Assembly: GCA_900095095.1 (NCBI GenBank)
Contig: FMBT01000380.1
Location: 119,451-183,450 of the forward strand
Length of the DNA: 64,000 bases
Direction: 5' to 3'
Origin: Fragilariopsis cylindrus CCMP1102
Lineage: Eukaryota > Bacillariophyta > Bacillariophyceae > Bacillariales > Bacillariaceae
Shown here in pieces: positions 49,687 to 64,000 of the stretch. Under the pieces are notes generated by a model. The model was given only the letters and a program-made list of their open reading frames with translations, was not told where the DNA came from and ran no database searches. Position 1 is the stretch's first letter. Each line of letters starts with the position of its first letter. The translations under genes and the position numbers were made by a program.

Positions 49687-49950
49687 AGTAGCCTAGTAGT
49701 GTCGAATTGTTGTACGGTAGTCTAATCTAAATCTCAAAGGTGCGTGAGAGAGGTTATGGATTTGCAAACATAAAGATACAGCAGTACACCATTGTATCTT
49801 ACGTCTCGTAAAAGAAAAAATAACGGGAGTGAAAAGATAAAAGATTGTTAGGGTGGTGCGCCTAAATTGAAGTTTTCAGCCGTTTTCCTAAAGTTGGCGA
49901 CGTAATAAAGTCGAGTTAAGAAACATGCTGCGCATATATCAAATTAGACT
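49687..49950. other. 5' flank of the membrane protein, left flank of the retroelement
   Basis: Unique sequence ending AAATTAGACT immediately before the element. It shares no direct repeat with the right flank (ATATTATAAT after 60284), so no target-site duplication is visible. Confidence 0.5.
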
Positions 49951-50218
49951 CTAAATTTAGTTGCACTAAATTTAGCCGGAGTTGCTATGCGACTAAAGTA
50001 ATTATTGTGAATCATTCTTCTGGCTTACCTCGGTTTTGTTGAACACGTTTTTCTGGATCTATCTAAGTGTATATAGTTTCGTCAAAAGAGGTTGATTGTT
50101 GTCAGTCGTGGCTAACTCGGGACTGAACTGATGTGACCTATTTTTGGTGGATTGTGTATTCCGGACCACTTGTGTTCCGGGGTTCACTAGCCACTAAAGA
50201 TACTAAAAGAGCTTCCTC
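49951..50218 (-). repeat. Split direct repeat B2 (268 bp)
   Basis: Identical by eye to 50419-50686 (offset 468). Its outer end (49951) is the 3' terminus of the element and begins with two copies of the palindrome CTAAATTTAG separated by 5 nt. Confidence 0.93.
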
Positions 50219-50239
50219 TAGGAGTGAGGATGGTTGTGG

Positions 50240-50418
50240 AAGAAGAAGCGCTTTCAGCGGTCACGTCAGCTCCGGAGCTGCCTCACAACAAAACACGATG
50301 TTTCCAAAAGAATGAGTCCAGAATAGATTCCTCTTCTGGACTTTGATTTTTCTACTAGCGCGCGCGTTGTATAAAAATAAATCGCTTGATTCCTTTTTAC
50401 AGCTTTAACACTCCTTGA
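50240..50418 (-). repeat. Split direct repeat A2 (179 bp)
   Basis: Matches 60106-60284 with one substitution (C versus T in the AGATT-CTCTTCTGG string). It abuts B1 exactly at 50418/50419 and carries TATAAAAATAAAT next to a GCGCGCGCG run. Confidence 0.93.
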
Positions 50419-50443
50419 CTAAATTTAGTTGCACTAAATTTAG
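50419..50443. promoter_or_regulatory. Candidate tyrosine-recombinase core site (also at 49951-49975)
   Basis: Two copies of the 10-bp palindrome CTAAATTTAG flank the asymmetric spacer TTGCA. It lies exactly at the B1-A2 junction and at the element's terminal base. Paired arms around a short spacer resemble crossover sites of tyrosine recombinases. The function is inferred from position and symmetry. Confidence 0.5.
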
Positions 50444-50686
50444 CCGGAGTTGCTATGCGACTAAAGTAATTATTGTGAATCATTCTTCTGGCTTACCTCG
50501 GTTTTGTTGAACACGTTTTTCTGGATCTATCTAAGTGTATATAGTTTCGTCAAAAGAGGTTGATTGTTGTCAGTCGTGGCTAACTCGGGACTGAACTGAT
50601 GTGACCTATTTTTGGTGGATTGTGTATTCCGGACCACTTGTGTTCCGGGGTTCACTAGCCACTAAAGATACTAAAAGAGCTTCCTC
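50419..50686 (-). repeat. Split direct repeat B1 (268 bp)
   Basis: Identical by eye to B2. Together with A2 it reproduces the circle junction sequence inside the element. Confidence 0.93.
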
Positions 50687-51111
50687 CATCAAACCAACTT
50701 TAGTTGGGTATAGTCCCATAAATGTGTGGAATGTTGAAATGACTTCCGGTCATAGCGTGGGTGTGTTAGGCCAGGCTATGTGCACGGGAGTGAGACTCTA
50801 GTATTAGTGTAGCTAATGTGAAAGTTGAGAATGAAATATTGTGTGTTGCAACCTAGTTGTAGCTTCGGTGAAAGTTACGATTATTAGTTAACTACTGATT
50901 ATTCTCTTTTCTTTATATATGTATAGTTAAATTGTTGGTTCGTCTGTGGTACAGAACCTTTAACAAGATGTTCGTTGGATACGTCGTGAATGTATAGGCG
51001 TGATCCTGGAGTCTACGATTTGTTCGGTGTAGATGGATGTCGGAATGGTTGAGTCAGGAGTGCTATTGTGGTAGCACGACTCTGGCCATGGTGGCGGTAT
51101 ATCAAACATTT

Positions 51112-52869
51112 CTAATCTTCGTTGACCTCGTCGACAAGGTTGAAGTTGGAATTGATGTTTTGAATCCAGACTGCGCTGTGTAAGCGGAGGTTTTGGGCGT
51201 TGTCATCCTTTGCTGGAAACGCTAACTTGCCCAGGAGCTTGTTGATGCTGCTGCTGTCCTCTTCGGTCAATGCTTTGATCGTGTTCTTGCCGAGGATCCA
51301 GACGTTTTTCTGCTTCTTTAATACGTGGAAGCTGGGTGGTTTGTGGTTGTTGCAAGAGATTACTACGTTCATATGTGGAATGTAGATAAGCCATTGGTAC
51401 ACTTTGCCCTTGATGCTTTGTACTTGATTTCCCTTGATTTCCATTTGGCACAAGAGAGGAGCGGTGGTTGTGAAACAGCCTTCTCCGGCGAAGTTGCCAG
51501 CATTCTGGCCTTTGAAACAATCTGCAATGCCTGGACTGAGACCATGTTCGATTACTGCTGCGTCGTAATCTTTGTAGGCGAATCGTTCCGCTGCATTGTT
51601 TCGTTTGAAGATGACCGAGATGGGCGTGTCATGCTTGGTGTAGTCGGGTAGAAATACCCTGTCGAGCCAATGAGATGGTACGGATGCTCCCACAAGCGCG
51701 AGCGCTGTTTCTAACGATGCTCGCGGGTTGTCCTTTGGTAGGCATGAAAGGATTGGTGGCTCCGGTTTCATGTTGGGGAAGACGGTCCTGAACGTTTTCA
51801 TTGCCTGGGCATTTGAAATGCTGTGATTTAAGTTGTGTGTTGCTAGGCCGTCCCACTCGAACAATTGATACAATCGTCTTCTAGCGGTGGGCTTTTTGAC
51901 AGGTGCCTGATCGATAGGTTTATCGTTCGGAGTGACATTGTTGGCTAGTCGTGCATTTTCTGACCGTACTTCGGCCATTAACCCCAGTGCGAAAGCTTGC
52001 AAGTGCGGATTTACGGTGATTGTTGCTGCACGTTTCTTGTCGGTAACGACGACACCATTGTCGACGTGTTCCGGAAGTGTTGCGACTGTTGCTGCACGTT
52101 TCTTGTCGGGAATGATGACTCCCTTGTCGACTAGATCCGGAAGTGTTTCGATGACACTCTTGCCGGTCTCGTCCGTGAGATCGACAGCCTGGAGTTCACT
52201 GTTAGCAGTTTGTAGTTTGCTGATGTGTTCCTGTGCTCTGTAATGCTGGAGTGTCATGTCCATTGCGACGACCATGACGTTGGTGGTGCTGATAGCCTTG
52301 GCGATCTTGGCATAGAATGTGCCGGGGAGCTGTTCGTTTTTGATGCGTTTCGCATCAGGTTCGATAGTAGCTCTGTTGTCTCGTTCCTCGGCTAACTTGT
52401 AGTCCACGTCCCCGAGGTGTTCCTTGGTGACCTGGGTACAACATTTACGGGTGAGTAACGAAGCAAGTTCGAAGTACGTATCATCGTCGAGGGCGGTGAA
52501 AGTGGGAATGTCAAACTTCATACTAGATTGAGTTGAAAGCGCTATGGTGCAATTTGCCTTTTTGTTTTGTTCGAAATAGAATTTGTGTGCTATTGCTGGT
52601 GAGTTGTACCAAAGTAGATTTGTGTAACTATCGAGTATATTTTGTTGTGTTAAAATCGGTTGCGTATTCGCGACAATGTGTTGCGTTGTTGGTTTAGAAA
52701 CGTCTAGTTTTCTTTTGTGTCCTGGGGTCAAGTTTGAGTTCAGGTTTTTCATTGTTACAAGTTTTTGAGTGGATGGAGAGTCCGTTGTGTTGCTAACCGT
52801 TGTATGTTTATGCAACGGATCTGGCCTTGTGGGCAGAGTTGAAACGGTTGTTTCTATTTGTTCTAGCAT
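51112..52869 (-). CDS. Retroelement ORF4, unknown protein, 585 aa
   Basis: The last ORF of the element, after the tyrosine recombinase and before B1. The frame opens at 52896 with a TTG; the first ATG is at 52869 (MLEQIETTVS). Known relatives carry a methyltransferase or an SGNH esterase as extra ORF, but I see neither an NPPF/DPPY motif nor a GDS motif. Visible features: a basic patch KRKLDVSKP; a middle region with a tandem 22-residue duplication (TLPDLVDKGVIIPDKKRAAT then TLPEHVDNGVVVTDKKRAAT); KKPTARRRLYQLFEWDGL; and a globular C-terminal half with FPNMKPEPPILSCLPKDNPR, GCFTTTAPLLCQMEIKG and VYQWLIYIPHMNVVISCNNH. No membrane segment. The intact 585-codon frame in a recent insertion implies a real protein. 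Function unknown; this is the best candidate for novelty in the window. Confidence 0.8.
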   Translation of the reverse strand: MLEQIETTVSTLPTRPDPLHKHTTVSNTTDSPSTQKLVTMKNLNSNLTPGHKRKLDVSKPTTQHIVANTQPILTQQNILDSYTNLLWYNSPAIAHKFYFEQNKKANCTIALSTQSSMKFDIPTFTALDDDTYFELASLLTRKCCTQVTKEHLGDVDYKLAEERDNRATIEPDAKRIKNEQLPGTFYAKIAKAISTTNVMVVAMDMTLQHYRAQEHISKLQTANSELQAVDLTDETGKSVIETLPDLVDKGVIIPDKKRAATVATLPEHVDNGVVVTDKKRAATITVNPHLQAFALGLMAEVRSENARLANNVTPNDKPIDQAPVKKPTARRRLYQLFEWDGLATHNLNHSISNAQAMKTFRTVFPNMKPEPPILSCLPKDNPRASLETALALVGASVPSHWLDRVFLPDYTKHDTPISVIFKRNNAAERFAYKDYDAAVIEHGLSPGIADCFKGQNAGNFAGEGCFTTTAPLLCQMEIKGNQVQSIKGKVYQWLIYIPHMNVVISCNNHKPPSFHVLKKQKNVWILGKNTIKALTEEDSSSINKLLGKLAFPAKDDNAQNLRLHSAVWIQNINSNFNLVDEVNED

Positions 52870-53019
52870 TAGATTGGTAACGGATTTATAACTCAAACAG
52901 GAGATTATATGCGAAAATAAAATAAGGGCGTCGTGAAAGTTGTATTCGGTAGCTCAGTGGTTTTGAGCGCGACTAGTTGTGAGCAAATTAGTTAGGGTAA
53001 ATGTTTGTTTTTATATTAA

Positions 53020-54198
53020 TTAAGTATCTTCGTTGTCTAAAATAGGGGTCGGGATGGCGCGAAAGCCTATGTTATGGAAGAAAATGTTCTTGCCCATCGC
53101 TGTTGACAGGCCGGCTGAAAAAACAGCGATCTGTTCGTGGATGTAGTCGAGAAAAGTGTCGCTGCTCCAGCGTCCCATTTTTCGAATCGTGTGTGTTGGG
53201 GTGTTGTGTAGGTGCATCGCCATCGCCCCTCCTGCGCGTAAGCTGTGTGAGCTTATTTGCGCTGCTTCAAACCCGTGTTTTTTCATGTCGAGTTGGAGTA
53301 CTGCTGCTTTGAGCGCGGAGTTAATTTCGGTTGCGCGCATAACTTTGCCCTGGTGAGTCGGGTGTTCGAAATACGTGCTAATTATAGCAGTCGGGACTGA
53401 AGTGTGAGCAGTGATGTGCTTGACTCTTCTAATTAGTGCTTTTATTGGGCATGTATCCGTATTTGTTGTAAAATGGTGTATTGCCTGGTTTCGTTTGCCA
53501 TTTTTCTGATTCGATATTCGAAGAGTTGCTGCTGTGCATCTGATTAAAAGGGCGTCGATTGGGAGGTTATGGTCGAGGATGGTATTCTTGTCCCATAATG
53601 TGACGTCTTGGAGTCTGAAAGCTTGTGTTAGCTTTTTGGTTGAGGTCGGAGTGTACGTGTACTCTCCGACTCGGAGGAGATAGTAGAAAGCGATGATGGC
53701 TATGTCTGCCACTGCCTTTTGTTTTTCGGTGCCTGTTAACGCGTAGTGATACATGTATCTTGGGACACTGATTGGTACTGCTAATTTGAATTTGGCAGGG
53801 GGGTCGGTTCGTCGGTAGCCCTCAATAAGTTGGCCGATTTTTTTATAATATTTTCCTTGCGTGTTAACCACCGGACTTTGTTCTCCGTCCATCTCGAAGC
53901 GCGCTGTGATGGCCCGAAGCGATACTTGGACTGTTTGCGCACGAACTTGTTGTTTTTGTCGTGAAACGCCTCCGGATCGCACATGTTGGGCGAAACTGAC
54001 CAGCACTTCGATTTTGTCTTGTTGAGTAAGTGTACTGAGTTTTTCGTCATAGGTAGGAAAGTAAATGGCGAGGTAGTGGGTCCAAGCTTTCCAAAAACGT
54101 ATTCTTTCGTTGGTAGTCGACGCCACGACTCCAAAGTCGATTGCTTCTGTAGCAGCTCCGAAGAGACTTTTGACGTAACTTTGTTGCTGAGGAGGCAC
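53020..54198 (-). CDS. Retroelement tyrosine recombinase, at least 392 aa
   Basis: Phage-integrase family enzyme that would insert the circular element DNA. Catalytic residues: the first Arg in FYYLLRVGEYTYTP, the HxxR box in SSHSLRAGGAMAMHLHN, the His/Trp position in MGRWSSDTF and the nucleophile Tyr in FLDYIHEQIAVF. The N-terminal part (about 1-150) is helical and fits a SAM-like core-binding domain. The apparent start at 54198 is GTG and the frame continues upstream (RILDSVPPQQQ), with the first ATG only near residue 103. It overlaps the RT ORF by 418 nt in the -1 frame, so expression by frameshifting from the RT ORF, or by splicing, is likely. Confidence 0.92.
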   Translation of the reverse strand: MPPQQQSYVKSLFGAATEAIDFGVVASTTNERIRFWKAWTHYLAIYFPTYDEKLSTLTQQDKIEVLVSFAQHVRSGGVSRQKQQVRAQTVQVSLRAITARFEMDGEQSPVVNTQGKYYKKIGQLIEGYRRTDPPAKFKLAVPISVPRYMYHYALTGTEKQKAVADIAIIAFYYLLRVGEYTYTPTSTKKLTQAFRLQDVTLWDKNTILDHNLPIDALLIRCTAATLRISNQKNGKRNQAIHHFTTNTDTCPIKALIRRVKHITAHTSVPTAIISTYFEHPTHQGKVMRATEINSALKAAVLQLDMKKHGFEAAQISSHSLRAGGAMAMHLHNTPTHTIRKMGRWSSDTFLDYIHEQIAVFSAGLSTAMGKNIFFHNIGFRAIPTPILDNEDT

Positions 54199-56246
54199 AG
54201 AGTCCAGGATTCGTCCTGTGGTGGGGGAAAATGAGCGGAAAAGTCGGTGAGGAATGTAGCATTGTCGAGACTATGTTTGCGGGATGCAACGTCTGCCATT
54301 TTGTTGTAAATGCCGGAGATGTGTTCCACTGAGAGTAATGCTGTTCTGTTGGTGTGCAGGCGTACCGCCATGGCTCGGAGGATTCGTGCTGCGACCAATG
54401 ATGTGCTCGTTCTGAATTTGTACATCCACGCTACTGCCGGGAGATTGTCGCACCAGATTGAGACGCTGACGCCCCGGAGTGTAATTGGGTCCACGCTGTG
54501 CTCGAGAACAAGCCAGTGCATGAGTATTCCGGTTAGTTCTAAATCTGATATCGTGAGTTGCCCGCTTTTGTTGGATGACGAGCAAAACTGGTCTCGGATT
54601 TCTTGCGGCCACTCGAAGAACCATACGATCGGGACGACGGTCGTTGTGCCGCTGAACCAGACTCCACCGACTCCCCATTTGGATGCATCTACGAAGCCTT
54701 GATAAGATGGTGGATGTTCGATGAGTTCGGAGACATGTGTTGGTCGTCGTCCGACTAGACGGATGAGTGCTGACCAATCCCGGAGGATGTTTGCGAAGTC
54801 GTTTGTTACTTCGATTTTCCGACCCTGGTTTTTGGCAGCTGCGGCCATGTAACAATTTAGTTGTCCCAGGATTGGTTTGCCACATGGTATGGCAATGGTC
54901 GCGAATTGTAGTCGTCCATGAAGTTTTTGGAAACGTTTTACTTCAATCTTGTCTTTGCGGCGTATCGCCTTGAGTTCGGTAAGGAGTTCTTCGCATTTAC
55001 GTTGTGGCAGTTCGATGGTGCGTGAGATTCCATCGAAGAGCCAACCTAGGATTTCTTTTCTGGTGTCCCAGATTCCGTCCTCGAAAAGCTTCTTTTCCGA
55101 GACCGGATGTGCCATCTTGCTTCCGGACAATTCCGGAGGCGGAAATACCTTGGTGATGCCGTCGAGGATGCGACGTGAAAACTGGAGTAGATCGGCTTCG
55201 TTGGTGCTCTGGATTACGCCGATGAAATCGTCGATGTAGACCTCGATGAGTTGAAGGAACGTCCGTTTATCAGTTTCCGAGTCGATTGGAGTGTGAAGTT
55301 TGTTGATCTTGGTCCAATCGATGTCCATCATGATGTTTTCCATCGGTTGCTCGTCGATGATGACGTCATGTCGCATCTTGTCGTTGATGATGTCGCGTGC
55401 CGTTTCGGTTGCGGCGCAGAAGAAAGGCGGGCTTTCGCTCCAGCCCATCTGGAGGGCGTCCGGGATAACGAGTTGTACCGGGTCGTCCGGGCCTGCTCCT
55501 GGTAGGACGTATGCAAAATTCCATGCATCTTTTTCGCTGACTGCCATTCGCCAGTAGCCATCCTTTAAATCTACTTTTGAGAACATAAAAGGTGTCGTTT
55601 TGTCTTTCGACAGAGCCATTGCCCATATGATTCTGGGGATAACGTTCCCTAGTTCGTACATTGATTCTTGTTTTGCCAATGATTTGTCGGACGCACTGTT
55701 TACTGAGTCCAGCTTCTTTCCGTTGACGAGGAGCTGGAAGGATAAGTCTAGGATCATCCGATAGACGCGGGACTTGTGCGGTACTGCAGCTAGTGGTGAA
55801 ATTTTTAGATTTGGGGGGAAATCATGTTTGATGTCCTCCCAATTGACGAGGCGACAGGAGCCCTCCGTGACGCGTTCGAGGGCTTCCTTTTTGCATGCGG
55901 CTGCTGCTTCGGGTACGTTCGCACTGGAGTGTGCTCCACTCGCGATTGCTAATTCTAGGCGCTCCAGAGTCCAATCATCGCCGCAGTCGACTGGGCAGCC
56001 TTCGAGTGCGTATTCTAGCAGATCCGGACCTGCTGGGTGATTTAAAACTTCATGACGAGGAAACATTAAACCTTTGAATTGTGGTAACTTACTTTGGGTT
56101 GGAGTAAACGCATTGTCGTCGACTGGTTGTCGTCGGGGCGGTGGAGGGATCGGTCGACAATACGGTGTCCTGTACGGAGTGTCTGGACGGCATGGCGAAC
56201 GAGGTGGTGGTGGTATACTCGGTAGTGTGAACCGCGGGTGTGGCAC
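53781..56246 (-). CDS. Retroelement reverse transcriptase/RNase H, ~821 aa
   Basis: The frame is open from about 56291; 56246 is a GTG and the first ATG would be residue 62, so the true start is unclear (non-ATG start, frameshift or splice from the Gag ORF, which stops at 56403). A Pro-rich N-terminus repeats RFTLPSVPHP and RFTLPSIPPP. RT motifs: SRVYRMILDLSF, FSKVDLKDGYWRMAV (about 221, first Asp) and VYIDDFIGVIQS (about 338, YIDD catalytic box). RNase H: GFVDASKWGVGGVWF (about 515), an ELTGI helix, IWCDNLPAVAWM (about 597) and a late NKMADVASR. The last ~140 residues overlap the recombinase ORF. No aspartic protease or integrase of the LTR type is present, as expected for DIRS-like elements. 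Confidence 0.92.
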   Translation of the reverse strand: MPHPRFTLPSIPPPPRSPCRPDTPYRTPYCRPIPPPPRRQPVDDNAFTPTQSKLPQFKGLMFPRHEVLNHPAGPDLLEYALEGCPVDCGDDWTLERLELAIASGAHSSANVPEAAAACKKEALERVTEGSCRLVNWEDIKHDFPPNLKISPLAAVPHKSRVYRMILDLSFQLLVNGKKLDSVNSASDKSLAKQESMYELGNVIPRIIWAMALSKDKTTPFMFSKVDLKDGYWRMAVSEKDAWNFAYVLPGAGPDDPVQLVIPDALQMGWSESPPFFCAATETARDIINDKMRHDVIIDEQPMENIMMDIDWTKINKLHTPIDSETDKRTFLQLIEVYIDDFIGVIQSTNEADLLQFSRRILDGITKVFPPPELSGSKMAHPVSEKKLFEDGIWDTRKEILGWLFDGISRTIELPQRKCEELLTELKAIRRKDKIEVKRFQKLHGRLQFATIAIPCGKPILGQLNCYMAAAAKNQGRKIEVTNDFANILRDWSALIRLVGRRPTHVSELIEHPPSYQGFVDASKWGVGGVWFSGTTTVVPIVWFFEWPQEIRDQFCSSSNKSGQLTISDLELTGILMHWLVLEHSVDPITLRGVSVSIWCDNLPAVAWMYKFRTSTSLVAARILRAMAVRLHTNRTALLSVEHISGIYNKMADVASRKHSLDNATFLTDFSAHFPPPQDESWTLCLLSNKVTSKVSSELLQKQSTLESWRRLPTKEYVFGKLGPTTSPFTFLPMTKNSVHLLNKTKSKCWSVSPNMCDPEAFHDKNNKFVRKQSKYRFGPSQRASRWTENKVRWLTRKENIIKKSANLLRATDEPTPLPNSN

Positions 56247-56402
56247 ACTCGGGAGTGTGAACCTAGGCGGTACGCTGGGGTTGGAGAAACATTATAGCAG
56301 GTGATGGTAATGAGAAAATTATATATGAAAATTAACATAGATTGTTTTATAGTTATTACTTAATTACTGTATACTCGCTACTGGCGGTTATATGGTTGTT
56401 GC

Positions 56403-58985
56403 TTACATGGTGGTGGCCTTTTTTAACATCTCGATGGCCTTGTCCGGTTTATAAGCGCTGAAATCGGACTGGTGGGTGTTCTTGCATTTTCCGTTGCAGT
56501 AGCAAAAAAGCCCATAGTTGAGACAATTACTCGATTTGAGGCCTAGGGCCTCGCACATTTCTTTCGTCGATCCGAACTCGTTGGCAGTCCGGATGTCCGA
56601 GAGGCGGGGGAAGTTGCCGTCATGTGTTGCGCGGTGGTCCGCGATTAGTTTTCTGATGGCGTCGCATCCCGGACCCTTGCGTGTTGTAGGTTTGTCCTTC
56701 TTTGGTGACTTGTCAGCATTTCGCTTTCGGTCTGTATTCCGGTCTGTAGGTGTTGGAGGGCTGGGTCGCGGCGTTGCCGGAGTCTTCGCTGGAAGGAAAA
56801 TTGGACCGTAGCTGTGCGACAAGGACAAGTTGTTGTTTTCGATACCCAGGATGAGAAAATCGATGTTGAACTTCGGGAAACGCTTGGCGGCTACGTCTTC
56901 TGCTGTGCAAAAGACGCCGAAATACCGCTCAAGATGGCGGCACAGTTGGTAAATAATTTCGTTGCTGATTAGAGCCCGGAAGTTGGCTATGGCGGATAGA
57001 CGACTGTAGTTGTCGAACAGGGCATCGAGCAGGCGCTGGAGTTGAATTGACGGTGGCGCTCTGTCGCCAATTACCTGTATTAAACCTAGTTGAGTTAATT
57101 GCAGGTTGGTGATTAGGGCATCGATGGTGTCCGGAATCTGTGGCGTTCCTGGGATGCTGCGCTCTATGTCGGCTGACGTTGGTACGCATTGTGCGTTGAG
57201 AGCGCGAACACTTTCGAGTCTCTCCCTCTCGGCCGTCGACCTGGTGACGTAAGTGAGAGGGCCAAGCCCCCCATGGGGTTTGGTGCCTTCGAAGTTCGTT
57301 GGGGCTAGACGCCAATCCGTGATAGATTTCCGAAATTCGGCCGTGATGATTTGGCGGAAACGGGGATTCTTCTTGATCATTGGTTGAATGAAGTAGGTGT
57401 CAATGACGGAGTCCTTTTCGCCTTTGTCAGGAGCCTTGTTGTATTTCAACCAACCGCTGTTGTTGCACCGGTGCAAAAAATGGAGCTCGTGTGGTTGTAG
57501 ATGTGCCCATCCACATAAATTCCACGATCTGGTGCCCATACTGTCCTTTGCCTTTTTTGGTTGGTCCGGCTTGGTCGAGTTTGGGTGACTCTTGGATTCC
57601 GCTGCAAGAAACTTGAGCACTTGAAATCGGTTCATGTCCTCGGAGGTGAGGGGAAGGCCTGGGCCTCTGTTGAGCATTGCATGTAGGTGATCACCAATAC
57701 TTTGGTGAGGTGATGCACCCGTGTGACCCCCAAAACTGAAAGCCCCATTGCTTGCCGATGCTCCAAAGGTGAAAGCCGGTGCACCATGATACCCTGGGTG
57801 ACCCGGAGTGGGTTCACCAAATGGGTTGGTGGCGCCCGGTGTGCCGTACGGATTGTGGGACCTGGCTGCCGGTTGTTGGAACGTTGACGATGAGTCGTTG
57901 CTAAAACCGTTGCCTTCGAACGGGTTGGCCGCGATGTCAAATGGTAGTCCGGTCCTTTCGGGTCTTTCGGATGAAACTGGGTGCCCGGTTCCATATGGCA
58001 GTCCGTCGCCTTCGAAGGAGACGTTGCCTGTTGCTGTCCTGGTACTTTGATGTTGCCTGGCCAATGCTGCTGCGATGCGTTGCTGTTGCGCTAGTTGCTC
58101 CTCGAGTTGGACATTTCGTTGTAGTACCGCATTGAGATTAGCTTCGTTGGTTGCAGTTTCTCCTGGAGCATTTCCTGTGCGCTGACGATTATTGCGCAGA
58201 AGTGTTTCATCGTCGACGTCAATGACGTCTTCCGGTGCTGGGGTCGGGCGGAACTCCTTGCTGAGGCAGTTCAGGACTCCATTGGCGATGGCGGTGCCAA
58301 GTGTATTGTCGTCTTCGCTGAAACCCGTCTGTAGGTCTTTGTAAATATCCACCGAATGTGCAAGTGTGAACCAACGTGGTTGGTCCGGTTCGAGTTGCAT
58401 TTGACTGGTGCTGTCGGCGTTGTTGGGGAGGGTAGTATCCCTGACCATTGCTGCTGCACGAAGCCAGCTATAAACGAATTTGTCATGTTTGTCTGTTCTG
58501 CTCTTGAACATTGTTATTAAGTCGCGGACGCTTTTGTGAGAATTGTCGGCATTGAAGAAATCCGTGATGGTTTCAGCCCGGATTGGGATTAGTTTCATCA
58601 TGGGTCGTTGCTTGATCAGAGCGCTCGTGACATAGTCCAAGCCCTGATTCGCAGTTGAGTCGGCATCTTTCGCAATCCAGACGTCCGATGCCACTAGGTC
58701 GTTGGCATCGAATATCACTGCCTGTGGGCATGATGTGATTGTGATACCAAAACGTTGTGTTTGGTAAGCTCGTACCCATAAAATGGGGGTGACCTTCTTC
58801 GGTTGAGTGTTTAACACTGCAACTCCCAAGGTTCCGATTCCGCAGAACAACGCTTGGTCCGGTAGGTGAGTGGTCCTGTTGAAAGTGAGTGGGTGGGTGA
58901 TGAGTTGGCTTCTGGAGTTCGACTCTTTGGCCCGGGTTGCCTCATCGAGGATTGCTGTTTGAAATCCTCCCTCTGTGAACGCCAT
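56403..58985 (-). CDS. Retroelement Gag-like protein, 860 aa
   Basis: ATG at 58985 (MAFTEGGFQTAIL). First ORF of normal size downstream of A1. The N-terminal third is globular (LFCGIGTLGVAVLNTQPKKV); the middle has a coiled coil (AVLQRNVQLEEQLAQQQRIA) and a long Gly/Asn/Pro/Phe-rich region with repeated NPFG and GHPG-type words, which would be disordered. About residues 620-720 contain IPDTIDALITNLQLTQLGL, the block duplicated in the leader ORF at 59862-60056. A basic stretch (KRNADKSPKKDKPTTRKGPG) precedes a Cys/His end (SNCLNYGLFCYCNGKCKNTH) that could be a zinc knuckle of an unusual type. A particle-forming, nucleic-acid-binding role is inferred from position. Confidence 0.8.
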   Translation of the reverse strand: MAFTEGGFQTAILDEATRAKESNSRSQLITHPLTFNRTTHLPDQALFCGIGTLGVAVLNTQPKKVTPILWVRAYQTQRFGITITSCPQAVIFDANDLVASDVWIAKDADSTANQGLDYVTSALIKQRPMMKLIPIRAETITDFFNADNSHKSVRDLITMFKSRTDKHDKFVYSWLRAAAMVRDTTLPNNADSTSQMQLEPDQPRWFTLAHSVDIYKDLQTGFSEDDNTLGTAIANGVLNCLSKEFRPTPAPEDVIDVDDETLLRNNRQRTGNAPGETATNEANLNAVLQRNVQLEEQLAQQQRIAAALARQHQSTRTATGNVSFEGDGLPYGTGHPVSSERPERTGLPFDIAANPFEGNGFSNDSSSTFQQPAARSHNPYGTPGATNPFGEPTPGHPGYHGAPAFTFGASASNGAFSFGGHTGASPHQSIGDHLHAMLNRGPGLPLTSEDMNRFQVLKFLAAESKSHPNSTKPDQPKKAKDSMGTRSWNLCGWAHLQPHELHFLHRCNNSGWLKYNKAPDKGEKDSVIDTYFIQPMIKKNPRFRQIITAEFRKSITDWRLAPTNFEGTKPHGGLGPLTYVTRSTAERERLESVRALNAQCVPTSADIERSIPGTPQIPDTIDALITNLQLTQLGLIQVIGDRAPPSIQLQRLLDALFDNYSRLSAIANFRALISNEIIYQLCRHLERYFGVFCTAEDVAAKRFPKFNIDFLILGIENNNLSLSHSYGPIFLPAKTPATPRPSPPTPTDRNTDRKRNADKSPKKDKPTTRKGPGCDAIRKLIADHRATHDGNFPRLSDIRTANEFGSTKEMCEALGLKSSNCLNYGLFCYCNGKCKNTHQSDFSAYKPDKAIEMLKKATTM

Positions 58986-59861
58986 CGTGCTGATGTTTAA
59001 ATCCTGGCTGCGAGCGGTTTTGAGTTGCTCGAAGTTGAGATTGTGAGAGTGTTGTGTGCCGAAACAATGTGTTCCGGAATAGTGCCAAATGTGGAAATTT
59101 ATGTTTTTCGGGCGTTTGACGTCCGGAACTGACGTTTGGTCAGTGATGTGGTGAGCCTGAATGGCATGCGATTGGCATGGAGTCGCCGTTATTGTTCAGA
59201 ATCTATGTTGACAAAGGGTGGAAGTCGTCCTAAACGATGTTGTTTAGTTAGGGTGAGCCCCATTACGTTGGTGAATAATTACGTGAAATATTGTTGAATG
59301 TTATTTTGTTTTTGTCCCAACGAGGGATAAGGCAAATAGGAAGTGTGAATAAATTACTTATGTACCTATGTATTGTGTTCTGGGCTTATGTGTGCCTGAA
59401 ATCGAAAAATTCAATTCCGGAGTTGAAAATTTGACAGCTAGGAGTGACGCATGCGAGGGTGCGTGCAGGGGTGCTAACTAGTTTCGTTGAACGGTTGAGT
59501 CCTGACAAAATTTGAATGTATTATGTGATTTAACGTTATATTATATTCTTATATTTGGACTTGTCTATTATTTAAGATGTTTTTCGTTTTTAATGTGTGG
59601 GCACGTGGCATGGTATGCGTGTCGTGCTCCTGACTTTGACCGTTGTACGTTGAGGTCCGGAATCCCTTTTTGGATCTAAAACCTGTGGTGTTGCATGCAG
59701 TCTGTCTGTGTGGGTGTATTCGTCTGTCGTGCGACATTGCGTGCGCGGCGAACATTTGGTTGTAAATGGTAAAGATTTAGTTTTGACTTGTGAAATGTAG
59801 TTGTCTCTTTACGAGGCGTTTCGTCGTAACCGGGTGTTTCGTCTAGTTGACGCCATTCCTA
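58986..59861 (-). other. Retroelement leader between the small ORF and Gag
   Basis: About 880 nt without a convincing ORF. Probably the transcribed leader with priming and packaging signals; I cannot identify these. Confidence 0.5.
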
Positions 59862-60056
59862 TTACTCCGGAGTTGGGTAATTGTGTTTTTCATACATGGC
59901 CGCAAGCAGGCGCTTGATTTCGGTGGCCTGTGGCGATTCGTTGCCAAAATTCTGTATCAACACGGCTTGTATTCGTTGCATGTTTGTGATGAGGGCAACG
60001 ATGTCGTCCGGAGTGTTTCCGTGGATGCTGCGCTCCATGTCTTTGTTGTTTTCCAT
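59862..60056 (-). CDS. Small leader ORF resembling part of Gag, 64 aa
   Basis: ATG at 60056 (MENNKDMERSIHGNTPDDIV), 50 nt downstream of A1. ERSIHGNTPDDIVALITNMQ followed by VLIQNFGN and IKRLLAAMYEKHNY lines up with Gag residues ERSIPGTPQIPDTIDALITN, LIQVIGD and LQRLLDALFDNY. The order and spacing agree, so a Gag segment has been duplicated into the leader and kept open. It could act as a short Gag-interacting peptide or be a remnant; a spliced first exon is also possible. Confidence 0.55.
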   Translation of the reverse strand: MENNKDMERSIHGNTPDDIVALITNMQRIQAVLIQNFGNESPQATEIKRLLAAMYEKHNYPTPE

Positions 60057-60105
60057 GTGGTGGTCTCTGTTGTTGTCTTGTCTCCATTGAGCGGACGGGT
60101 AGTCC

Positions 60106-60284
60106 AAGAAGAAGCGCTTTCAGCGGTCACGTCAGCTCCGGAGCTGCCTCACAACAAAACACGATGTTTCCAAAAGAATGAGTCCAGAATAGATTTCTCT
60201 TCTGGACTTTGATTTTTCTACTAGCGCGCGCGTTGTATAAAAATAAATCGCTTGATTCCTTTTTACAGCTTTAACACTCCTTGA
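60106..60284 (-). repeat. Split direct repeat A1 (179 bp)
   Basis: 5' terminus of the element in the sense direction, one substitution from A2. Its outer base is 60284; the host sequence ATATTATAAT follows. Confidence 0.93.
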
Positions 60285-60630
60285 ATATTATAATTTCGCT
60301 TGATGCGTTAGATAAATAATATCCTGTCAAGCATGTTCTTTTACCGTTCAACTGTTCAGTGTGATTGATTTTGGAACTTTCAAAGAAATGAATATCTATT
60401 TTAAAGCTCATTTTTTGCGTCATATTGATTTCGAAATTGGGCGATTCTTATATCGATTGGCTGTATGATGTAGTCGTCCACAGTTGCTGATACTGAGTGG
60501 AATGGTTTACTTACAATGAATAATAGAATAGCAATCATAAAGAAATCGAGTAATATCTTGAATCTATTCGTTTCGTTTTTTCGACACGACGTAGCGTGCG
60601 CGTACAGAAGTGAACGATTAAGTAGGCAAT
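60285..60630. other. 5' flank of the right-hand membrane protein gene
   Basis: Unique host sequence between the retroelement and the ATG at 60631. It and 49687-49950 would together have formed a divergent promoter region of about 600 bp before insertion. Confidence 0.5.
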
Positions 60631-60712
60631 ATGAAGTCATCGTTCATCAAAGTGACACTATTGGTGTTGTTGCTGTTATTGGTTGCGGCTACGACTAAGG
60701 CGACAACAACAA

Positions 60713-60750
<38 letters not shown>

Positions 60751-61497
60751 CAAGCAACAGCAACAGCACAAGCAACAGCAGAGTTATCTAATGAAGATCG
60801 GCAAAGACATCAGCAGCACCAGCAGCAGCAGCGTACCATCAATCGACGTTTTTTGACCACTAAAGATCGCAATTATGACAAACCGATAGTTCATAATGTC
60901 CATAATCAATTGGATACAAAACAAGACTACTCCCACAACAACATCAGTATCATAAGCTTTCGACAACGAGAAGGAGAAGAACAACACCAAAACGTACGAC
61001 GACGAAAGATGAGCAACATGAGCAATTATTCTATTTCTTCTCAAGACTTCTCCCAAAGCTCGATATTATTCTTCGCAGTATGTGGTACATTGTTTTGTTT
61101 ACTATCTGTTTATATCCTGTCGTTACATGCTACATGTGGAGGTTGCTACACAAGTGGGAATGAAGTATTAGAAGAAGATAATATCAAAACCGAAACTCTT
61201 GTTGCACCAGCATGTAAATCTGAAAATTTCGTTGCACCAGCATGTACATCTTATACTACCACAAATCGCGATCACGATGATCTTGTTACACCAGCATGTA
61301 ATTCTTGGCTTGATCACGATGATAGCATTACCGCCGCAACAGACAGTGGTATTGCCAGTAAAGGTTCCTTTTCTTTAAGAGAAAACATAAATGTCTTACA
61401 GATTCATATCGGAAATTGCAGGACAATTGTCAACGACCGAACAGGATTTGTTGAACAAATACAGAGCTATTGCCAAACTTCAAAAAGCATTGCTTGA
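60631..61497 (+). CDS. Type I membrane protein with Thr-Ala repeats, apparent tail frameshift, 288 aa as read
   Basis: ATG at 60631. Signal peptide (MKSSFIKVTLLVLLLLLVAA), then Thr-Ala repeats from ACAGCA units (about 26-50), a His/Gln-rich ectodomain ending at VRRRKMSNMSNYS, one membrane segment (about 141-164, FAVCGTLFCLLSVYILSLH) and a tail with three related units: LVAPACKSE, FVAPACTSY, LVTPACNSW. The last ~30 residues as read look non-coding; the +1 frame from 61391 gives a convincing helical end (61391-61519). Start MKSS, the membrane segment and the following CG motif resemble the 49.1-49.7 kb protein, so the two are probably divergent paralogues. Function unknown. Confidence 0.65.
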
Positions 61498-61519
61498 TGC
61501 AAATAAATCACTGGCTTAA
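61391..61519 (+). other. Alternate-frame C-terminal tail of the 60.6 kb membrane protein
   Basis: Reads MSYRFISEIAGQLSTTEQDL, then NKYRAIAKLQKALLDANKSL and A-stop, a clean amphipathic helix. It is +1 to the main frame. A TTACAG acceptor-like string precedes it at 61396-61401, but no donor that I tried restores the frame, so an indel is the simplest explanation. Confidence 0.55.
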
Positions 61520-62427
61520 GCGTTTAGTGTAAACTTATATACATCTGTCCTTATTATAGAAGACGTAGTTTGACACGGAAAGGAAGAAGAAGAGGCTGCA
61601 TGTATGGTGGAAGAAGGAGTAGGTACTGTTACAGTTAACTTATTACAGTAGTAGTATTTATTTATTTGTATAGTACACATGCATTGCATATCCTACTACG
61701 AATATCCCATTTCTATACACTGCACTGATAATACAAATTGTATTTGCTTGCTTCACACCAACAATGCATGCGAATCGAATCATGCAAAACTACAGTAGAA
61801 TTATCTCCATGACAAACGCATGATGTTGTGTATACAGTACACTTGAGCATAAAAGAGGACTACTCCATAGAGAAACATTCATTTGTGCCAACAATTAATT
61901 GTAAAGTACGCTATTTATCCTCGTACTTGTACGCTAGGTTGTATCCCAGTAGAATAGAACGAGTGGTTGAGTGGTTGAGTGAGTTGAGTAGATCATCGGA
62001 TCTCTCGGGTCGCGCATTGCGTACTAGTAGAGTGGGGTAGGGCAATCGAAGCTGTGCTATGCCTTACTTATACTGTATTAAATTATCATGCCTGCCGATC
62101 GAGGAGGGATGATCGGAATGAGTACTATATGAAAGCGGGGAAGGAGAGAAATAACATAGTGCAAGTACAAGTACACTTACACACAAAAAAACTATAAAGC
62201 TAGTACTGTAAAAAGTGTCATCTACAACACAGTATCGTTCATTACATTATATAGACTAAACTACTGTAGCTACGTGTACTAGAATATAAGAAGGATTGAT
62301 TCTATTTTATAAATAAAAGGTTTTACAGTTACAGTTACAGTTACGCGATTTGAGAATGAATATAAGCAATGATGTGTTTATAGTACGTTCGTTGCTGTTT
62401 CTTTTTAGATTATTACTTTTACAATAT
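61520..62427. other. Convergent spacer, no gene seen
   Basis: Short repeats only: GAGTGGTTGAGTGGTTGAGT near 61960 and a TTACAG hexamer triplet near 62323-62341. The plus frame at 61828-62040 shows no motif. Confidence 0.45.
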
Positions 62428-63409
62428 TTAGACCGCTTCTTCATCACTATTATCATTTGAAGATGCAGATTCTGATACTGCTTCTGATGCTTCTGATGAT
62501 GATTCTGCTAATAATCCCTTTTCTTGTTTCGTCTTCATTGCTTCTGGACGTTGTTTACATAAGACATACAAGACCTTCACAATAATACCAAAAGAAACAA
62601 GAAGTAATCCACCGAGTACACCATATTGTACACCCGAAATTTGTTCTACTGTAAATTGATCCGTAATCTTTGTGGATGGTTCTTGTAATTCAGCATATAC
62701 ACCCCCTAATGCCCATACAATCACTAATGGTATCGCAAAATCAACAGGATAACTGGATAGGTATGTAAATGCTGTACCCAATAACACCACTAATGATAAA
62801 CTGGATACAATTAATTGTGTTGTGACATTTGCATTGTAGGAAACAGTAAAGACATTTGTCATCACAACTGCAGCTGCCATAATCCATCCAGTTTGTATCG
62901 AAAATGGACCTTGCCATAACAAGTAACCTTTCCATGTTTTCTTGTAGGACTGCAATGACCTTGTTGCCATTACCAGTGTAATGACAATTCCATACATACA
63001 AGTAATGCTACCCACATAATTTCATAACTAAATGAGATTGTCCACCCAGCTTGGAATACAGTCATAATAGGATAATAATACCATGCCTTCAAAACACCTT
63101 CTGAATTTCTTTGAGATGGTAAAAATTGCCAGACAACCCAAATTGCTTGCCAAATAAATATCACACCCCAAATTGAAAATGAGAAACCAAATGGTGTCAC
63201 AATTGTTTGATATTTAGCAGATAATTCACCATTGTCTGGTTGACCTGTTAATCCAAATATACCAATACCAAATGTCACAAAAAATTCACAATGTATGCTA
63301 ATAGATTCAACCAATTAAATTTGTTTAGTGATGTATTAGTCGACGACGACGACAACGGTTCACTTGTAGTAGTATCAACAACCATGATATCGATGTCGGA
63401 AGTAGTCAT
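62428..63409 (-). pseudogene. TspO/MBR-like multi-pass membrane protein with two apparent frameshifts
   Basis: The real start is ATG at 63409 (MTTSDIDIMVVDTTTSEPLS), reading into NKFNWLNLLAYIVNF. One base appears missing in the run of six A at 63279-63284 (T run on the coding strand); the next frame then continues VTFGIGIFGLTGQPDNGELS, TIVTPFGFSFSIWGVIFIWQ and SYEIMWVALLVC. A second 1-nt loss near 62990-63001 leads to the third frame: GIVITLVMATRSLQSYKKTW through several more membrane segments and an acidic Ser-rich tail ending at 62428. The TPFGFSFSIWGVIF block resembles tryptophan-rich sensory protein (TspO-related) families that bind tetrapyrroles or sterols. Corrected length would be about 325 aa. 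Homopolymer position of the first shift makes sequencing error possible. Confidence 0.65.
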
Positions 63410-64000
63410 GGTGCCGTAGAAGTGGTTCGTTATCGTTTCGTTTCGTTTGATTTGATCTTGAGAGATGGGAGGATAATAATTCGATTGATATATGCTTCTG
63501 ATTCTTGTGTTTGTGTTTGTGTTTGCTTGTGTTTGTGTTTGCTATTTATTTTATTTTTATGAGAGAAATAAAAAACGAATGAATGCGAATGACAATGAAA
63601 CACTTGGTCACTTGGGTGTAAGTCGCCGGATGTATAATATCTCTCGCGTTTTATCTTCTTTACTTTTTCTACTTTCTTTGTTGTCGTCGGTGAAAAAGAG
63701 GTGCGAATCGCAATCGTATCAATAGTCAAAAATGACAAGAATCAACGTACGTGTTCACTAACTTGTGTTTTTTTGAAACATACTTCGCTCTACTATTGTG
63801 CACTAACGGCTAATACTTAGTCGTGCTTTACCGCTTGAGCGTTTAGTGAGTGACTGAATTTGAATTAGTCAGAATTACGGTACTGGCGTCATGACGTCAT
63901 ATATTATTATTTAACGTGATAACGGCATCAAATGTTGATAAGAACAAAAGAATTATTTTCCACAATTAAACAAAAAATGCTATGTCATCGATCGTGTGTA
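63410..64000. other. 5' flank of the TspO-like gene, no other gene seen
   Basis: Contains TGTTTG repeats near 63510-63540. Open frames at 63430-63738 (-) and 63492-63725 (+) are opposite-strand products of this low-complexity DNA. Confidence 0.45.

Follow-up and report, generated by a model that had tools for sequence, protein, structure and literature searches.

A probably recently active tyrosine-recombinase retroelement with split direct repeats, a Gag-RT intron and an exchangeable fourth gene in the diatom Fragilariopsis cylindrus

The 64,000-nt stretch of the Fragilariopsis cylindrus CCMP1102 genome analysed here (the window) carries on its minus strand a tyrosine-recombinase (YR) retroelement of 10,334 bp at positions 49951-60284. 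Its structure, its copies and their insertion sites make it highly probable that this is a recently active retrotransposon of the split-direct-repeat type with a spliced Gag-RT, insertion by its YR and an exchangeable fourth gene, ORF4. On the minus strand the order is A1 - ORF0 - Gag - intron - RT/RNase H - YR - ORF4 - B1 - A2 - linker - B2 (Table 1). The initial annotation had given the order A1-ORFs-B1-A2-B2 and this holds, with 178 of 179 nt identical between the A copies (one mismatch, 99.44%) and 268 of 268 nt between the B copies (100%).

Table 1. Features of the element in the window and empty insertion sites of other copies
Feature	Position in the window, or contig	Strand	Remarks
A1 repeat	60106..60284	-	element 5' end; outer end CTTGA
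ORF0	59862..60056	-	64 aa; resembles Gag residues 606-661 (BLASTP E 8e-13, 45% over 56 aa)
ORF1, putative Gag by position	56403..58985	-	860 aa; stop TAA inside the splice donor of the intron
Intron	56275..56406	-	132 bp, GTAAGC...CCCCAG, in the Gag-RT gap; exactly absent in C81
ORF2, reverse transcriptase + RNase H	53781..56246	-	821 aa as listed; YIDD 337-340
ORF3, tyrosine recombinase	53020..54198	-	392 aa; R176, HSLR 318-321, Y352
Exchangeable cassette (ORF4 + flanks)	50934..52940	-	type I in the window, type II in 7 other copies
ORF4	51112..52896	-	594 aa; listed with a TTG start, the first ATG being codon 10; type I allele
B1 repeat	50419..50686	-	internal
A2 repeat	50240..50418	-	internal; abuts B1 directly
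Linker	50219..50239	-	about 21 nt, between A2 and B2, outside both repeats
B2 repeat	49951..50218	-	element 3' end; outer end carries CTAAATTTAG-TTGCA-CTAAATTTAG
Empty site for the C90 solo unit	C174		
Empty site for C349	C182		1-nt gap a few bases left of the joint; right side weaker, 81%
Empty site for C471-left + C209-right	C356		
Empty site for C282-left + C66-right	C150		
Fifth site, for C398	C405		empty site longer by about 27-31 nt

The outer B end carries two 10-nt palindromes with five bases between them. The internal junction of A2 with B1 reads CTTGA followed directly by CTAAATTTAG in 13 of 16 rows, the window among them, and is the same as the right end of the element joined to its left end, the mirror relation that had been noticed at the outset; the remaining three rows are two solo units, with host flank next, and the remnant C354. 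This identity suggests a circular intermediate. In the 67.9-Mb assembly searched (818 contigs), the terminal 25-mer has 30 matches when two mismatches are allowed, against none for the reversed-pattern control, which excludes a chance origin of the termini; it occurs as a tandem pair on 12 contigs. The host is a diatom, as had been proposed, since the assembly gives 27 match rows (exon pieces) to the silicon transporter PF03842, all over the cut-off; of 14 control genomes one responds to this profile, and none past the cut-off.

The RT and the YR score weakly in general profile libraries, so their identity is taken from motifs and architecture. The YIDD motif and the R, HxxR and Tyr of the recombinase reported in the initial annotation are present, and candidate acidic residues of the RNase H are found in ORF2; these motifs presumably have their usual catalytic roles. 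The ORF2 frame is open as far as the intron acceptor at 56274, and ORF3 overlaps ORF2 in a different frame. ORF3 matches the Pfam family Phage_integrase with an E-value of 0.006, below the cut-off, and the best hit of the RT among PDB profiles is a reverse transcriptase/ribonuclease H chain (4ol8; E 0.24, not significant). The putative Gag has no Pfam match above the cut-off. Short peptide patterns of the RT, of the RT alignment and of ORF4 revealed no relative in a viral contig collection, nor did those of the RT in prokaryote genome contigs, and Rfam gave nothing at the gathering threshold. Single-sequence AlphaFold2 models of the YR (mean pLDDT 31.5) and of ORF4 (30.7) are unusable.

The match to ORF0 adjoins A1 in the window and at 14 of the 16 right-end loci of the family (L028-L043, tblastn); the same search gives no row for C156 (L033) or C505 (L039) and none in the divergent loci L044-L046. 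In some other elements a truncated Gag interferes with particle assembly, and ORF0, as a self-encoded Gag fragment, could do likewise.

The Gag stop TAA sits within GTAAGC, and the RT frame opens after CCCCAG. GTAAGC and the CAG end are kept in 12 of the 13 copies covering the intron, C156 included. Copy C81 lacks precisely the 132-bp stretch, so that Gag and RT form one open frame of 1,760 aa from stop to stop; the joined junction is found once in the genome by exact match. Because the loss is exact, we infer an RNA intermediate, of which C81 would be a natural, spliced trace. That the gap is present in a single copy could speak for a chance deletion involving no spliced intermediate, a reading which we consider most implausible given that the edges of the gap are exactly GTAAGC and CCCCAG, that the frames are fused and that, bar the old copy C156 and a contig-end artefact in C282, it is the only gap of at least 12 nt outside the cassette in the aligned stretches. 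The apparent 2,345-nt deletion in C282 was rejected as the end of the contig.

The search for further copies with the same termini, a check named beforehand, yielded two solo units and 13 copies that were aligned beside the window (C298, C209, C398, C349, C299, C156, C282, C562, C166, C340, C81, C324 and C471). These dispersed copies are near-identical and have constant ends, and the ORFs of the window copy are open, in agreement with the recent movement proposed initially. CTTGA is present at all 11 right ends read among them, and the left end begins with CTAAATTTAG in 12 of 13, the left B of C298 being 8 nt short. C282 and C562 are cut by contig ends; the left flank of C562 is 100% identical to that of C166 over 298 nt and the two may be the same insertion. 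The solo units, C90 and C103, have the structure B-linker-A. Their complement is the older copy C156, whose left end has just one B and in which no A2 was found, as would be expected from B-B recombination or from resolution by the YR.

Absence of a target-site duplication is typical of YR retrotransposons (DIRS order). The genome was searched for empty sites with the joined flanks of nine copies and with ten further single flanks. Four homologous empty sites (alleles or paralogues) join left to right flank exactly, and no target duplication is seen at any of the five sites recovered (Table 1). The left flanks with an empty counterpart belong to C349, which has ORF4 of type I, and to C282 and C471, of type II (see below). 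The genome search gave no empty site for C166, C340, C81, C324, C103, C299 and C156, nor one matching the assembled partners of the C209 left flank and the C471 right flank. The left flank of C298 recurs in C679 and then runs into other sequence; the right flank of C340 recurs in C589 without any left flank from the copies examined. A 13-nt repeat at the flanks of C324 was rejected as target duplication as it sits in a simple repeat.

The empty-site comparison thus bore out the absence of a target duplication at four exact sites of other copies, whereas the expected join of 49950 to 60285 in the window was not found, its flanks being searched apart. The left flank of the window copy is found once in the genome and the right flank on five contigs, all occupied by the element. 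Right-flank sequence from 60285 to 64000, with an ORF at 60631-61497, is 98-100% identical in C298, C505, C553 and C156, A1 being attached each time. A unique left and a recurrent right flank could come from segmental duplication, ectopic recombination or assembly chimerism. The empty site shared by the left flank of C471 and the right flank of C209 implies that flanks were mis-paired in the assembly or that copies recombined, and C299/C398 show a similar mis-pairing. Since flanks of other copies are mis-paired in this way, the pairing of 49950 with 60285 is suspect and the two may not be true partners.

For the 594-aa product of ORF4, an ORF that the initial annotation did not name, Pfam gives no match at E up to 1, whether for type I or for type II; its best hits in NCBIfam (E 0.042) and among PDB profiles (E 0.085) are both below significance. 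Within the type I ORF, a 66-bp tandem duplication at 52018-52149 of the window, its two copies 85% identical, adds a 22-aa repeat. Seven of the 13 aligned copies (C282, C562, C166, C340, C81, C324 and C471) carry type II: compared with the window their identity falls to 52-61% in two core bins and to 70-74% in the bins at the edges, the other bins read giving 98-100%. The cassette of C298, C209, C398 and C349 is 98-100% identical to that of the window and that of C156 89-100%, and C299 has a third version, type III, with 67-91% over most of the cassette. The transition is abrupt. C349, of type I, and C340, of type II, differ by 8 substitutions and 5 indel columns from 52,941 to about 59.5 kb (about 6.5 kb) and by 762 substitutions from 50,934 to 52,940; no substitution separates them below 50,934. 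Differences of up to about 11% between type II copies (11.26 for C340/C471) look like an artefact of projection onto the window, the joint alignment giving 91-100% identity to C324.

An open type I frame is present in C260, C209, C298 and C398, an open type II frame in C81, C324, C282 and C166; the matched frame has stops in C156 and C349, and the matches are in pieces in C340, C562, C471 and C299. The mis-paired flanks might raise the suspicion that the cassette pattern itself is an artefact of assembly. This is hardly credible: both types are open in four copies each, with different left flanks; among the best candidates ORF4 matches are found only in the copies of this family (family 1) and the remnant C354, no other backbone carrying type II; and the RT of the next family (family 2) is just 55-58% identical.

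ORF4 proteins of types I and II share 42.5-43.3% of their amino acids, with dS 1.45-1.53 and dN/dS 0.34-0.35. For RT (three pairs), YR (two pairs) and Gag (two pairs), comparison of type I with type II copies gives pS 0.012-0.045 and a printed dS of 0.01-0.05. RT dS between families 1 and 2 is 1.58, so that types I and II of ORF4 are separated by roughly the distance between the families. The dN/dS ratio is not uniformly low, reaching 0.43-0.59 for types I and III (dS 0.21-0.46), 1.40 between C324 and C166, a near-identical pair of type II, and 0.74-0.92 for the ORF that follows the YR in family 2, which is compatible with weak constraint. The high family-2 ratio could be read as fast evolution of ORF4 in place on a conserved backbone, no exchange having occurred. 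This reading is very improbable and is contradicted by the synonymous divergence, which also jumps, to about 1.5, at sharp edges; moreover, the type I copy C349 has a backbone nearer to that of C340, of type II (0.14%), than to that of the window, of type I (0.28%). Targeted hypermutation of ORF4 was dismissed because synonymous exceeds non-synonymous change between types I and II.

Grouping of the backbones cuts across the ORF4 types. In a tree of YR-RT-Gag, the type I copies C209 and C349 share a 98% node with C299, C156 and the type II copies, and in a tree of the Gag 5' part they join the type II copies at a 97% node; many of the inner nodes have weak support. C156 has a YR-RT-Gag backbone diverged by 11-12% and an ORF4 just 3.2-3.4% from type I, pointing in the same direction from the opposite side. 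Linkage of single backbone SNPs to the cassette is uncertain as the assembly mis-pairs flanks.

Family 2 (RT 57% identical) carries split-type direct repeats of its own and an ORF after the YR, and the long frame upstream of its RT, taken as Gag, likewise ends at a TAA inside GTAAG. C635 and C341 are 99.5% identical in RT-YR over 1.5 kb and 99-100% in the repeats. Their post-YR ORF begins with 95-100% identity, then falls to 76-91% over about 1 kb, beyond which identity is 96-100% through the remaining sequence and the repeats. Synonymous divergence in this ORF is 0.18-0.21, against 0.029 with zero amino-acid changes in 249 codons of the RT. C306 and C605 are about 99% identical throughout, and the family-2 copy of C81 about 99% up to an internal duplication of ~700 bp in the post-YR ORF region (L058, 1702-2401). 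Family 2 shows a cassette-like pattern similar to that of family 1, a weaker case because it is seen in a single divergent copy that is frameshifted. A candidate homologue of the ORF4 carboxyl terminus in this family (E 0.0007-0.04) is only suggestive. C306, which by its RT identity of 46% looked like another family, proved to belong to family 2: it carries a frameshift and matches C341 at 98.9%. C88 contains a more distant YR element (L048, 2173-4667; RT 32-33% identical, YR frame broken by about 1.1 kb) with two direct repeats of 179 nt and nothing significantly similar to ORF4.

How alleles move between backbones is a question of route. We privilege, with moderate confidence, template switching by the RT between co-packaged RNAs. 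A rather unlikely alternative is that integrated copies or circles exchanged the sequence as DNA, through gene conversion or ectopic crossover, in line with which two solo units exist and the mis-paired flanks of C471/C209 and C299/C398 could be real ectopic recombination; assembly through 10-kb repeats explains this mis-pairing just as well. Both family-1 breakpoints lie just outside one ORF and the family-2 divergence is again in the post-YR ORF, an arrangement that strongly favours neither route.

With template switching as the preferred route, the following life cycle can be proposed. RNA would be transcribed from A1 to B2 and, as read from the one intron-less genomic copy, part of it spliced at the 132-bp intron. 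Unspliced RNA would lead to the Gag stop and spliced RNA to a Gag-RT/RNase H fusion, presumably setting the protein ratio. The RT could then rebuild the ends via the internal B1-A2 block and a circle would close with B1-A2 as its joint. Integration of a circle by the YR is the established model for split-repeat elements, and the precise joins at four empty sites suggest that it occurs here without target duplication. ORF4 would be an accessory protein carried as an exchangeable cassette, its divergent alleles swapped into one backbone by recombination, an exchange that the copies display. In the weakest step of this scheme, ORF4 might meet a varying partner, host factor or rival element; that it is an accessory protein facing a variable partner is held with low confidence.

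YR retroelements are rare and little tested. This family is a natural record of three steps that are usually inferred: the RNA intermediate (intron loss), precise insertion by the YR (empty sites) and modular recombination. The presence of ancient ORF4 alleles in backbones that are nearly the same, echoed in a second family, would indicate a conflict acting on ORF4. Tentatively, ORF4 could be a type locus, with several ancient alleles under pressure to differ that template switching has shuffled between near-identical backbones, in two or more families of one diatom; the pressure might be escape from a host factor or compatibility with rival copies, a part of the proposal that is equally tentative. 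What YR elements must evade or compete with would be directly testable in a diatom.

The assignment to the Ngaro/PAT type of DIRS elements made in the initial annotation is supported by the split direct repeats, by RT/RNase H and YR in the expected order and by the absence of a target duplication at the four exact empty sites of other copies. RT/RNase H and YR without an integrase define the DIRS order, and both are recognised here by their motifs, library scores being weak; profile scans of the element give no integrase match except the YR-type PF00589. The arrangement A1-[ORFs]-B1-A2-B2 is that of Ngaro, PAT and VIPER, and passage through RNA is suggested by the intron loss of C81. The Pfam scan (E up to 1) finds no methyltransferase domain in the RT ORF and also misses RVT_1, its sensitivity being low. 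The SGNH hydrolase that follows the YR in Ngaro elements with a fourth ORF, in some hosts only, is not recognised in ORF4 by the same scan.

The flagellate Cafeteria burkhardae is a stramenopile. Ngaro elements of this heterotroph, in the available part of their description (Hackl et al. 2021, PMC8547959), share with the diatom element the layout A1-[ORFs]-B1A2B2, the order Gag, RT/RH, YR and the existence of solo AB units. They differ by a size of about 6 kb against 10,334 bp, and that part of the description makes no mention of an ORF4-type cassette; in the main text of PMC8547959 the word 'intron' appears in just two passages, both on other elements. Ngaro-like elements of Xenopus, as far as the sections available of PMC9210276 describe them, have split direct repeats with A and B pairs 100% identical and four ORFs, the fourth located after the YR as in the diatom. 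By description that ORF is set apart from ORF4, being an SGNH hydrolase. PAT elements of the DIRS group likewise have split direct repeats, an RT and a YR and, in the accessible portion of PMC4157794, are placed in a group that encodes a putative methyltransferase, whereas none was detected in the diatom element by the low-sensitivity scan. Partial texts also mention DIRS/Ngaro-like elements in marine stramenopiles (PMC3145265) and Gypsy/DIRS1 content in a diatom (PMC8613185).

Among the matches listed from a partial literature excluding Repbase, seen as titles and beginnings of abstracts, neither a cassette nor an intron loss was recognised in YR elements. Introns may have been reported in DIRS or Ngaro elements of fish. 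Neither 'intron' nor 'splic' occurs in the main text of PMC3783388 or of PMC3266345. In the Ty1/copia element EVD of Arabidopsis, according to the portion available of PMC8892269, intron use divides Gag from Gag-Pol as it seems to in the diatom element, the outcome being reversed: spliced RNA yields Gag alone in EVD, whereas in the diatom it would yield the fusion. The element has a known Ngaro/PAT architecture in which the ORF4 cassette, the Gag-RT intron and ORF0 are new relative to the literature searched.
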